This document shows, one piece after another, positions 1,575-7,542 of a stretch of DNA of 64,000 nt (position 1 is the first letter of the stretch; every line of letters begins with the position of its first letter). Origin of the DNA: Aminivibrio pyruvatiphilus (GTDB taxonomy: Bacteria; Synergistota; Synergistia; Synergistales; Aminobacteriaceae); assembly GCF_004366815.1 (NCBI RefSeq), contig NZ_SORI01000006.1, positions 18,993-82,992 of the forward strand, given 5' to 3'. Under the pieces are notes generated by a model, which was not told the DNA's origin, did not search any database, and saw only the letters and a list, made by a program, of their open reading frames with translations. A program made the translations under genes and the position numbers.

Positions 1575-2237
1575 TCAGGATTTCCCGTCCTTCCTGGCCA
1601 GCCGGGCGAGGAGGTCGCCCCCGGCCTGACACAGCTGCACCAGCAGAATGAGCACTGCCACGGTGGCGAACATGACGTCCAGGCGGAAGCGCTGGTAGCC
1701 GTACCTGATGGCCAGATCCCCGAGACCGCCGCCGCCCACGGCCCCGGCCATGGCCGAGAAGCCGATGAGACTCACCACCGAGAGGGTGAGGCCGGAGAGA
1801 ATGGCCGGGAAAGCCTCGGGAAGGAGCACCTTCCGGATGACCTGCCATGACGTGGCGCCCATGGCCTGGGCCGCCTCCACCACCCCCCGGTCCACTTCCC
1901 TCAGGGCTCCCTCCACTACCCGACCGACAAAGGGTGCGGCGGCGATGGAGAGAGGAACGATGGCCGCGCCGGTGCCGATGGACGTTCCCGCGATCAGCCG
2001 CGTCACCGGGATCAGCAGCACCATGAGAATGATGAAGGGTGTCGACCTGGCGGCGTTGACCACCGCCGACAGCAGGCCGTTCAGCACCCGCCTCTCCAAG
2101 AGCCCTCCCCTGGACGTCACGTGAAGGATCACTCCCAGAGGAACTCCGGAAGCAAACGCTATGGCCGACGATGCCCCCACCATGAACAGGGTCTCCCCGA
2201 GAGCCTTAAACAGCAACGCTGATACCTGATCCCACAT
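1575..2237 (-). CDS. metI: D-methionine ABC transporter permease MetI
   Basis: A 220-residue inner-membrane permease of the MetI type. It has about five hydrophobic segments and the EAA-loop signature EAAQAMGATSW near residue 140, which docks on the ATPase. The usual family length is about 217. It is the last gene of metQ-metN-metI, and its start overlaps the end of metN by 32 bases. The start at 2237 has the ribosome site GGAGGTGAT just upstream. Together with MetN and MetQ it imports methionine, and some family members also take other small amino acids. The SAM riboswitch upstream of metQ supports methionine as substrate. Confidence 0.93.
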   Translation of the reverse strand: MWDQVSALLFKALGETLFMVGASSAIAFASGVPLGVILHVTSRGGLLERRVLNGLLSAVVNAARSTPFIILMVLLIPVTRLIAGTSIGTGAAIVPLSIAAAPFVGRVVEGALREVDRGVVEAAQAMGATSWQVIRKVLLPEAFPAILSGLTLSVVSLIGFSAMAGAVGGGGLGDLAIRYGYQRFRLDVMFATVAVLILLVQLCQAGGDLLARLARKDGKS

Positions 2238-3280: not shown

Positions 3281-4075
3281 CTACCAGGCGGGAATGAAGC
3301 CGCCCTTGTACCGCTCCAGCATGAACTTCGCAGTCTCCTCCGTCTGGTAGGCCTCCACGAGCTTTTTCACCAGGGGATTGTCCCTGTCCTCTTCCCGGAC
3401 GGCGATCACGTTGGCGAAGGGGGAGATTTCGGCATCCTCGAGCAGAATCGCGTCCTTCAGGGGGGACAGGCCTGCCTCCACCGCGTAGTTCACGTTCACG
3501 GCGCCGATGTCCACGTCGTCCAGAACCCTGGGAAGCTGGGGAGCCTCGATCTCGATAAACCTGAGATTCTTCGGGTTTTCCACAATGTCAAGCACCGAGG
3601 CGGTATATCCCGTTCCTTCCCGAAGCTTTATAAACCCTTTCTGTTCCAGCAGTGCCAGGGCTCTGCCCACGTTTGCGGGATCATTGGGAACGGAGACCTT
3701 TGAACCTTCCTTCAGGTCGTCGATGTTCCCTATCTTTTTCGAGTAGAACCCCATGGGGCAGACCACGGTCTTGGCCACGGAGACGAGCCTGTATCCCCGG
3801 TCCCTGTTCTGGGTGTCGAGAAAGAGCTGGTGCTGGTAGGAGTTCGCGTCGAGATCCCCCTGGTCGAGGGCGGCATTGGGAGTGATGTAGTCGCTGAAGG
3901 GAAACACCCTGAGCTCCACGCCTTCGGTCTTCAGCCTCTCAGCCAGGGATTCCAGTATTTCGGCATGGGGCCCCGACGTCGCTCCGACCTTCAGGGGAGC
4001 GAGGGCGGCTTCCGACCCCGCGGCTGCGAAAACGGCTATGGCTGCTGCTGCGCAAATTGCTGCTATTCTTTTCAT
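3281..4075 (-). CDS. metQ: Methionine-binding periplasmic protein MetQ (NlpA family)
   Basis: A 264-residue substrate-binding protein. The start at 4075 was chosen because AAGGAAGG precedes it and a standard Sec signal (MKRIAAIC..., hydrophobic core, cleavage near AGSEAA) begins there; the frame is open further upstream to 4249 but that stretch overlaps the leader terminator. The family hallmarks are the core beginning KVGATSGPHAEI and the segment YITPNAALDQGDLDAN. MetQ proteins are usually lipoproteins with a lipobox Cys. No Cys sits at the predicted cleavage site here (the only N-terminal Cys, residue 8, is inside the signal core), so the protein may be soluble in the periplasm. It is the first structural gene after the SAM riboswitch/attenuator leader. 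Confidence 0.92.
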   Translation of the reverse strand: MKRIAAICAAAAIAVFAAAGSEAALAPLKVGATSGPHAEILESLAERLKTEGVELRVFPFSDYITPNAALDQGDLDANSYQHQLFLDTQNRDRGYRLVSVAKTVVCPMGFYSKKIGNIDDLKEGSKVSVPNDPANVGRALALLEQKGFIKLREGTGYTASVLDIVENPKNLRFIEIEAPQLPRVLDDVDIGAVNVNYAVEAGLSPLKDAILLEDAEISPFANVIAVREEDRDNPLVKKLVEAYQTEETAKFMLERYKGGFIPAW

Positions 4076-4200: not shown

Positions 4201-4241
4201 AAATAAAAAAACGGGACCCCCTCGAGCTGCGGGGATCCCGT
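4201..4241 (-). terminator. Second leader terminator upstream of metQ
   Basis: On the minus strand an 11-bp near-perfect stem (ACGGGATCCCC with GGGGGTCCCGT, 9-nt loop) is followed by TTTTTTTATTT. It lies 23 bases after the stop of a 30-codon upstream ORF and about 125 bases before the metQ start, so it must be read through for metQNI to be expressed from the riboswitch promoter. Confidence 0.85.
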
Positions 4242-4264
4242 TCCGGCAAAATCAGCGCACGATG

Positions 4265-4357
4265 TCAGCCGCCGACCCTCCCCGGAGGAGATCCGCCGTT
4301 GCCGCACATCATCATGGTGAACAGAGCGCAGAATCCGTTTCTGATGGAACCGGTCAT
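4265..4357 (-). CDS. 30-codon upstream ORF with Met triplet, candidate leader peptide
   Basis: ATG at 4357 is preceded by a strong site, AAAGGAGGATCCCC. The product is 30 residues: three consecutive Met codons (15-17, 4307-4315) followed by CGNGG, with another Cys at position 10. It sits between the SAM-I riboswitch terminator and a second intrinsic terminator. The hexamer CGGGGA at codons 25-27 (4279-4284) is complementary to TCCCCG in the 5' arm of that terminator (4230-4235), which is the geometry of a translation-coupled attenuator. A ribosome stalled at the Met codons would leave the hexamer free; one that finishes translation would cover it. Translation and function are inferred, and a Shine-Dalgarno-like coincidence is the alternative. 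Confidence 0.5.
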   Translation of the reverse strand: MTGSIRNGFCALFTMMMCGNGGSPPGRVGG

Positions 4358-4390
4358 GGGGATCCTCCTTTCCGTCGGGCCGGGCCCGGC

Positions 4391-4429
4391 AAAAATAAAA
4401 ATGCCTCTTCCGGAATGAAGGAAGAGGCG
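4391..4429 (-). terminator. SAM-I riboswitch expression-platform terminator
   Basis: On the minus strand a 9-bp stem GCCTCTTCC/GGAAGAGGC with an 8-nt loop is followed by ATTTTTATTTTT. It begins about 11 bases after the riboswitch P1 helix, the standard arrangement for an OFF switch that terminates when SAM is bound. Confidence 0.9.
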
Positions 4430-4439
4430 TCGCTGGTTC

Positions 4440-4550
4440 ATTCAGCCTCGATCATCTTCCAGGAAAACCTGCAGGAATTGGCACCGTTCAGCATTTCGCT
4501 GAGGTTGCCGCGGCTTCGCAGGGCCTGTCCCTCCGCCGCTCCGGATGAAT
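4440..4550 (-). promoter_or_regulatory. SAM-I (S-box) riboswitch upstream of metQNI
   Basis: The minus strand carries the S-box core almost exactly: GCGGCGGAGGGACAGGCCC, then GAAGCC, CGGCAACC and GGTGCCAATTCCTGCAGG. The outer helix P1 is formed by ATTCA (4546-4550) with TGAAT (4440-4444). Known S-box elements bind S-adenosylmethionine and repress methionine genes. The terminator at 4391-4429 is its expression platform, and metQNI lies downstream. Confidence 0.95.
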
Positions 4551-4576
4551 CGATTCGGTATTAAGGTATGGCGGAG

Positions 4577-4606
4577 ATTATAGGGTACCTCCGCCGGATC
4601 TGTCAA
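4577..4606 (-). promoter_or_regulatory. Consensus promoter for the metQNI leader
   Basis: On the minus strand TTGACA (4601-4606) and TATAAT (4577-4582) are separated by 18 bases. Both boxes are perfect sigma70-type consensus, and transcription would begin about 20 bases before the riboswitch. The -35 box starts 11 bases after the end of the upstream peptidase gene. Confidence 0.85.
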
Positions 4607-4616
4607 CAGGCCGATT

Positions 4617-6272
4617 TCAAAAAACGGACGTTTTTTGCTTCCGCCCTCGCCGGAGAAGCATCAGCCCGAAGGGAACCAGCAGCAGGACCGCCGAAAGGGA
4701 CGGAGCGCCGGTGGTGCATCCTCCCGATTCTTCCCCGGCTCCCAGCGCCTTGAGGCAGAAGTTTCCGCCCGGCACAACCCCGGTGAGGTCGGTCCAGGTC
4801 ACGCCGTCGGCGCTGTAGAAGCTCTGCCCCGGAGCGGCGGAGGCTCCGTCGGAGTACCCCGCCACCGGAACTTCCACGGGGAGAGGGAACTCATAGGCCG
4901 GGGCGGTCACCTTCACTTCCGCGGAAAATCGTGTTCCCCGGGGGAGGTAGACCGGGGTTCCAAGGACGACGGTATGGTACCCCGGTTTTTCCAGCACACC
5001 CCGCTGCCCCCGAAGGGGCACGGACTCTCTATCCGCAGGAGTGGCTCCGGAGAGGATCGCCACAGTGATTTCATATTCCGTTCCGTAGTCGGGCACGTAA
5101 AAGGAAACCGCCTTCAGAGCCTGGTTCTCTTCCGCCGTGAAGATGTTGGCCATCCATGCAGGAGAGCCTGCCGCGGGCGTTTCGAGGGGAGAGACGGACC
5201 GGACCCATCCCAGGGGGTCGTACTGATGGATGATTCCGTATTCCCCCGCGGGCGAGGAGAGATAGACAATGCCGCTGTCGAGGCTCGTGTCCTCGTAGGA
5301 CATGTAGAAATACCCATCCTCCCCGAAAGAGGTTCCCCAGCTGTTCCGGACAATCCACGCCCCGTCGCCTGACGGCTGGGCCGCAAATCGCTCCTTCGGG
5401 AAATAATCATCCCACCCGACGATGTTCACCGCATGGTTCGCACCCCGGGGACCGCTGTAGAAAAAGGCGCCGGTATCTTCGTTCCAGGTGTCTTCGTCGA
5501 AGTCGGCCATCATGCCGATGGACACCGCCCCCCGGGTCATAAGGGCGTGCTTGACCTCCTCAGCGGCGAGATGGGGGTAGCCATCCCTCCAGATTTCCAC
5601 GGCCGGATAGGGCATATACAGAGCACTTGTGAGAAGTTTCTGCCGCGGGAGCCGGGGCTTTTCCGCCGGCAGTGGCCCGCCGTAGGGAAGATCCGTCTCG
5701 TTCACCGGACCGGTGCCTCTTGAGAGGACGGCCACGGCTTTCCAGTCGTCCCCTCCCTGGTCGAAGAGGGCGACTTCTTCGTCAAGGGTGAACGGAGGAA
5801 ATCCTTCCGGGTTTTCTCTGTAAGCCCAGTACGCAAGGTGCCATTCGGAGAAATCCCGGGGTTCTCCGGGAAGAAGGGATGATTCCAGGGCCGCCAGGGC
5901 GGCGAAGGTCCAGCAGGTGCCGTAGGGATCCTGGTCCCGTACGGGAGACAGCTTTCCCTGTTCTCTGAGGTCGAACCTGGCGGGGAAGGGCGCGTCTTCC
6001 CTGAAGGTCCGGGCCGCGAGATGCCGGACAGTCTCTCCCCGGGCCCGGAGGTGGTCCAGATTCAGCGGTGACGGCCGTTTTCCCGCGGGACGCCTTTCCC
6101 CAGCGAAAAAAACGCTCCCCCGAAGCTCCGCTCCGCCGCCGCGGGGAAGAGCCCGGTCACGGAGAAAGGCGGGGTTAAGAGGGGCAAGGGACGGCCCTGC
6201 CGCAGGGGACGGCAGAGCGGCAGCGATGAACAGAAAAAGAGCGGCTGCCGCAAAAACGGCAGTTTTTTTCAT
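4617..6272 (-). CDS. Secreted papain-like (C1A) cysteine peptidase with Synergistes-type C-terminal sorting tail
   Basis: A 551-residue exported peptidase. The ATG at 6272 is used because GGAAG lies 8 bases upstream; the GTG at 6281 is too close to it. In order it has a signal peptide (1-25), a propeptide-like region and a C1A catalytic domain with Cys120 (DPYGTCWTF), His280 (GANHAVNIVGWDD) and Asn310 (RNSWGTSFGEDGY). A beta-rich C-terminal domain follows, then a tail of SGGCTTGAP, a hydrophobic stretch and RRGRK. That Gly-Cys/hydrophobic/basic layout matches the Synerg-CTERM sorting signal, known from Synergistetes surface proteins. The likely role is extracellular protein digestion feeding amino-acid fermentation. 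It has its own context with no operon partner. Confidence 0.88.
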   Translation of the reverse strand: MKKTAVFAAAALFLFIAAALPSPAAGPSLAPLNPAFLRDRALPRGGGAELRGSVFFAGERRPAGKRPSPLNLDHLRARGETVRHLAARTFREDAPFPARFDLREQGKLSPVRDQDPYGTCWTFAALAALESSLLPGEPRDFSEWHLAYWAYRENPEGFPPFTLDEEVALFDQGGDDWKAVAVLSRGTGPVNETDLPYGGPLPAEKPRLPRQKLLTSALYMPYPAVEIWRDGYPHLAAEEVKHALMTRGAVSIGMMADFDEDTWNEDTGAFFYSGPRGANHAVNIVGWDDYFPKERFAAQPSGDGAWIVRNSWGTSFGEDGYFYMSYEDTSLDSGIVYLSSPAGEYGIIHQYDPLGWVRSVSPLETPAAGSPAWMANIFTAEENQALKAVSFYVPDYGTEYEITVAILSGATPADRESVPLRGQRGVLEKPGYHTVVLGTPVYLPRGTRFSAEVKVTAPAYEFPLPVEVPVAGYSDGASAAPGQSFYSADGVTWTDLTGVVPGGNFCLKALGAGEESGGCTTGAPSLSAVLLLVPFGLMLLRRGRKQKTSVF

Positions 6273-6308
6273 GGGGGACACTTCCTTTCGCTGATGTTTT
6301 TCCGGGGC

Positions 6309-7495: not shown

Positions 7496-7542
7496 ACAAG
7501 GGAAAGAGGAAGTGCCCGGCGGGCACTTCCTCTTTCCCTTGT
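7496..7542 (-). terminator. Perfect 22-bp inverted repeat after the M20 hydrolase gene
   Basis: The arms 7496-7517 and 7521-7542 are perfect reverse complements with a 3-nt spacer. It lies 17 bases beyond the stop of the minus-strand amidohydrolase gene and probably ends that long operon. The flanks lack a good T tract, so it may act as an mRNA-stabilising 3' hairpin rather than a classical terminator. Confidence 0.6.

Follow-up and report, generated by a model that had tools for sequence, protein, structure and literature searches.

Is the methionine importer operon metQNI of Aminivibrio pyruvatiphilus (Synergistota) governed by one switch or by two in series? SAM riboswitches, Met T-boxes, and repressors are known controls of methionine genes, and classical ribosome-mediated attenuators, such as the trp, his, leu, and ilv leader peptides, have been described for many different amino acids. 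We analyzed a 64,000-nucleotide stretch of contig NZ_SORI01000006.1 (the window), in which the original prediction had described a consensus promoter, an S-box aptamer with its terminator, a 30-codon open reading frame (ORF) with a strong ribosome site and three Met codons, and a second terminator, all ahead of metQNI. We confirmed that every one of these leader elements is present and that NCBIfam models identify the downstream genes as metQ, metN, and metI. The order on the minus strand is promoter, SAM-I aptamer, terminator 1, Shine-Dalgarno sequence, ORF, terminator 2, and metQ-metN-metI, as follows.

4577..4606, minus strand: sigma-70 type promoter, TTGACA-N18-TATAAT, matching the consensus at 12/12 positions
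4449..4551, minus strand: SAM-I (S-box) riboswitch aptamer, RF00162, 87.4 bits, E value 2.3e-19, gathering score 44.4
4391..4428, minus strand: intrinsic terminator 1 (terminator scan), GCCTCTTCC..GGAAGAGGC plus U-rich tail; the stem (4428-4403) is followed by ATTTTTATTTTT
4363..4371, minus strand: Shine-Dalgarno sequence of the leader ORF, AAAGGAGGA, read from the sequence
4265..4357, minus strand: leader ORF of 30 codons, MTGSIRNGFCALFTMMMCGNGGSPPGRVGG, supported by sequence and Synergistota homologues
4304..4315, minus strand: control codons Met15-Met16-Met17-Cys18, from the conserved Met run and its fixed spacing to the antiterminator
4275..4294, minus strand: antiterminator strand, ORF codons 22-28, GGATCTCCTCCGGGGAGGGT, from duplex energy, covariation, and codon bias
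4231..4252, minus strand: partner strand of the antiterminator, which shares bases with the 5′ arm of terminator 2, from pairing computation
4201..4244, minus strand: intrinsic terminator 2 with U tract (stem 4244-4208), from sequence and family conservation
3281..4075, minus strand: metQ (start at 4075), methionine ABC transporter substrate-binding lipoprotein, TIGR00363 above cut-off, PF03180
2206..3267, minus strand: metN, methionine ABC transporter ATPase, TIGR02314 as best match, its 415 bits falling short of the curated cut-off (499.7)
1575..2237, minus strand: metI, methionine ABC transporter permease, NF008049 above cut-off

Directly upstream of the metQ promoter, also on the minus strand (4617-6281), lies a gene for a 554-residue protein with a papain-type protease likeness by eye, a hydrophobic C terminus, and a basic tail; it had no match in an NCBIfam search. 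Elsewhere in the window, about four near-identical 255-bp tandem repeats (3-997) fall within a long plus-strand ORF (75-1508), and a 20-bp inverted repeat (7497-7541) that separates two convergent genes is probably a two-way terminator.

The SAM-I match in the window is full length and above the curated RF00162 score. Terminator 1 begins ∼20 nt downstream of the aptamer, as an adjacent expression platform, and the aptamer and terminator fold together with a z-score of −3.35. Neither the window nor any of 56 related loci matched a T-box in Rfam, and the matches from a plasmid search were short, partial, and confined to the SAM-box region.

We searched 185 genomes of the same phylum, first using the 30-residue peptide as query and then an alignment built from 15 relatives, which yielded matches in 51 genomes from 29 genera at E values up to 0.1, the weakest being chance matches. 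The compiled family set comprises 51 distinct Synergistota leaders. Members were chosen by a motif that included Met and GS[SP]P, so the conservation of these residues is partly a selection effect; terminators, downstream genes, and pairing played no part in the choice. The peptide consensus is M...MMMC-xxx-GS[SP]P[GE]xxG, preceded by a variable N-terminal half. A run of three Met is found in 46 leaders and missing from 5, compared with a Met content of 1.7% in the downstream proteins. The Cys after the run usually belongs to the conserved control stretch and is replaced by Arg or Gln in 8 of the 51 leaders. Nearly all members have a strong Shine-Dalgarno sequence, and every one (51/51) has an intrinsic terminator 11 to 28 nt past the stop codon; terminators of comparable quality lie within 35 nt of 98% of leaders but of only 0.7% of positions drawn at random from these loci. 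The first gene after the leader is metQ in 25 cases, metY in 15, metX in 2, a cystathionine-synthase/lyase gene in 2, metN in 1, a sulfonate or amino-acid ABC transporter gene in 3, and unassigned in 3. The ORF, its Met run, and its alternative helices, which the original prediction had proposed to seek in relatives, are conserved in about 50 Synergistota leaders. Within the window's own genus, three of four other genomes lack the leader, and several have SAM-I without it. When 84,980 species were scanned with the pattern, the matches outside the phylum (Paenibacillus and others) sat in unrelated frames and had no leader, and we rejected them as homologues.

A few family members depart from the common context. 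At L157, L178, and L108, the leader precedes sulfonate or cystine-type ABC transporters, and the codons Cys-Met-Cys of L178 in place of the Met run suggest a cysteine-sensing offshoot. At locus L173 (G009), leader and terminator are intact, but the gene that comes next is a transposase (rve domain) and not a methionine gene; an insertion may have split this leader from its gene.

What could couple the ORF to terminator 2? The original prediction paired CGGGGA of the ORF with TCCCCG of the terminator arm and cautioned that this helix was only 6 bp. The pairing exists in the window, but the main antiterminator is in another, conserved register, which supersedes it: GGAUCUC...CCGG, from codon 22, pairs with CCGG...GGGAUCC over 16 to 17 bp, at −31.9 kcal/mol for 17 bp. 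The duplex of the 4275..4294 strand with the terminator 2 arm has an energy of −21.8 kcal/mol. Across the family, the strand complementary to the GS[SP]P[GE] codons comprises the terminator's 5′ arm and a few bases ahead of it. Pairing was assessed by swap tests; column-wise pair counting on a MAFFT alignment was dropped because the arm falls out of pairing register between subgroups. Mean duplex energies were −21.5 kcal/mol for a leader's own strands, −17.2 kcal/mol for swapped strands, and approximately −11.5 kcal/mol for shuffled strands (own versus swapped, 0/5000). The difference between own and swapped strands persisted among 24 leaders of <68% identity (z = −7.2; 0/10,000 permutations) and among 10 leaders of <62% identity (z = −4.0; 1/10,000). 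Coding position 12 pairs as UA in 29 leaders, AU in 8, GC in 6, and CG in 3 across lineages, with compensatory changes at this twelfth base such as CCUG/CAGG and CCAG/CUGG; the window has CCGG/CCGG. The peptide variants GAPE and GSYP retain pairing. Codon usage follows the same pattern when set against the downstream genes as background: Gly is encoded by GGC in 3/51 leaders (background, 45%), Ser never by AGY (background, 31%), and Pro by CCT in 33/49 (background, 14%). Since codon choice fits the RNA, it appears to be conservation of the RNA strand that keeps the GS[SP]P residues constant. Two further helices were considered. Pairing is possible between the Met codons and the spacer that follows the stop codon (own versus swapped, z = −4.2 in 35 leaders and about −2 in divergent sets); such a helix may act as a 1:2 helix that, in the absence of a translating ribosome, competes with the antiterminator and favors termination. 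A helix between the GS[SP]P strand and the Shine-Dalgarno sequence is energetically possible and showed no coevolution in the swap test.

Ribosome geometry was computed with an assumed footprint of 11 to 13 nt beyond the start of the A-site codon. On this assumption, the window's antiterminator is intact with a ribosome at codons 15 to 18, erodes from codon 19 onward, and is gone from codon 26. The last Met is five codons from the GGN codon in most leaders, with fewer only where an extra Met trails the run. When a stall was simulated before emergence of the 3′ arm, the antiterminator formed in 50/51 leaders; with the ribosome placed at the stop codon, the terminator remained in 50/51. By computation, then, the antiterminator is exclusive with the terminator, exposed upon stalling, and covered upon completion. 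In the equilibrium fold of the window, terminator 2 wins over the antiterminator even when a ribosome is stalled, and antitermination must therefore be kinetic. Kinetic read-through is presumably usual for attenuators.

SAM-I lies 78 to 131 nt upstream of the leader in 10 of the 51 cases, drawn from four families. The pair precedes metQ in the window's genus and in two other families, and metY or metX elsewhere. Most tandem leaders have a similar promoter at the same place as in the window, and the position of terminator 1 is common to them; the terminator is weak in G028, which belongs to the window's genus. The other 41 leaders have neither SAM-I nor a T-box upstream and constitute a peptide attenuator alone. 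Viewed from the transporter gene, a leader lies 120 to 310 nt upstream of 31 of the 117 MetQ genes examined; it stands alone in 24 cases and is accompanied by SAM-I in 7. Of the remaining MetQ genes, 3 have SAM-I alone within 1 kb, and 83 have neither. At locus L036 of G028 (∼1408-1480), the SAM-I terminator is degenerate and the downstream Met leader attenuator is intact, as if control were shifting from the SAM sensor to the attenuator.

We propose the following model. With SAM bound, the riboswitch would end transcription at terminator 1, and polymerases that pass this point would go on to transcribe the short leader ORF. When charged tRNA-Met is plentiful, the ribosome would run through Met-Met-Met-Cys to the stop codon and cover the GS-P-P codons, the antiterminator would not form, and terminator 2 would halt transcription. 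When tRNA-Met is uncharged, the ribosome would stall at codons 15 to 18 and leave codons 22 to 28 exposed to pair with the emerging 5′ arm of terminator 2; the resulting 17-bp antiterminator would let transcription proceed into metQ. Expression of metQNI would accordingly need both low SAM and scarce charged tRNA-Met, an AND logic, and the same attenuator, mostly without a SAM switch, would serve metQ, metY, metX, and related operons across the Synergistota. The parts, their conservation, the pairing, its coevolution, and, given the assumed ribosome footprint, the geometry are read directly from the genomes; from these we infer that the ORF is translated, that ribosomes stall in it when tRNA-Met is uncharged, that SAM is bound, and that the two signals combine as described. 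That a SAM-I switch and a methionyl-tRNA-sensing attenuator gate metQNI in series is, on the sequence evidence, highly probable. The second switch is very likely real because it recurs across the Synergistota with compensating mutations. The originally suggested gating by SAM and Met-tRNA thus gains support from the conservation of the ORF, the Met run, and the helix, with the register and length of that helix corrected and with most relatives doing without the SAM switch.

Because MMMC and GS[SP]P[GE]xxG are conserved as residues, the ORF might instead encode a small protein with a function of its own, such as a Met/Cys metal-binding peptide, whose place in the leader is coincidental. Such a protein would not be expected from an unconserved N-terminal half, from the replacement of Cys by Arg or Gln in eight members, from GAPE and GSYP variants that preserve RNA pairing, from codon choice that tracks this pairing, or from the fact that every member ends 11 to 28 nt ahead of a terminator. 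The codon bias and the variable N terminus led us to reject this reading, which we rate very unlikely. Alternatively, methionine or SAM could trigger ribosome arrest by the nascent peptide itself, rather than through codon decoding, in the manner of the MTO1 region of plant CGS1. Conserved residues past the Met run, and Pro-Pro in part of the family, would fit such an arrest, yet these residues come after the stall position that frees the antiterminator, their conservation is accounted for by the RNA strand, and the residues ahead of the Met run vary; we consider peptide-mediated arrest improbable.

The SAM-I switch could also be the sole regulator, with the ORF and terminator 2 an inert remnant, a reading to which the same-genus genomes with SAM-I and no leader lend some weight. 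It is opposed by the 41 leaders that exist without SAM-I, by the coevolution of the antiterminator pairing, and by G028, in which the degenerate terminator is terminator 1, and we judge it extremely unlikely. Codon-dependent attenuation downstream of the SAM-I switch is the reading that we retain.

How does this leader compare with known systems? It shares with the trp, his, leu, and ilv attenuators a run of control codons within a short ORF, a terminator before the first gene, and an antiterminator and terminator that compete for one strand. It differs from them in that its control codons specify methionine (with cysteine), the first antiterminator strand lies within the end of the ORF, and the leader is conserved phylum-wide, sometimes after a SAM-I switch. 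In Streptomyces lividans, a metL leader was proposed before metNIQ on thin evidence (PMC8079986). It too is a Met-containing short peptide before a methionine importer operon, but its Met codons are scattered, its start is leaderless, no typical Rho-independent terminator was found, and no comparative support was given (PMC8079986). The Xanthomonas campestris SAM-I riboswitch detects uncharged initiator tRNA as well, which it binds directly, so that a single leader answers to SAM and a methionine tRNA (PMC7270179); there, the tRNA binds an RNA platform and translation is controlled, whereas in our proposal a ribosome on an ORF would control transcription. In Salmonella, mgtCBR with its tandem attenuators and mgtA, whose leader has a proline-codon ORF, likewise combine two independent sensors in one leader, one of them reading tRNA charging via a short ORF, but their signals are ATP or Mg2+ plus proline, act additively, and do not use two serial intrinsic terminators (PMC3641672). 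As described in PMC3641672, the methionine gene metE of Bacillus clausii is preceded by SAM and B12 riboswitches in tandem, two serial sensors that each have a terminator; they differ in that both are metabolite aptamers and neither senses tRNA charging. A comparative study of Actinobacteria found no methionine attenuator (PMC1262725), and leader peptides go unmentioned in a 2025 survey of contiguous riboswitches (PMC12452182). We found no well-supported classical Met-codon attenuator in the open-access papers covered or as an Rfam family, and an earlier report could exist. The original remark that such control was not known for metQNI stands for the combination of SAM and tRNA sensing, which appears new, and is qualified by the S. 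lividans metL proposal (PMC8079986). The second switch is apparently undescribed: a classical mechanism in a new family and a new combination.

We think it likely that the Synergistota evolved a phylum-wide Met/Cys-codon attenuator as a main control of methionine uptake and synthesis, and that in at least four families it sits directly behind SAM-I, with a single transcript integrating free SAM and methionyl-tRNA charging by way of two serial terminators. Met is also the initiator residue, and attenuation at Met codons asks how the elongator and initiator tRNA pools stay separate under methionine scarcity. The serial SAM and tRNA arrangement, if true, would be a compact natural AND gate, and natural variants with both sensors, the peptide only, or SAM only exist for comparison.
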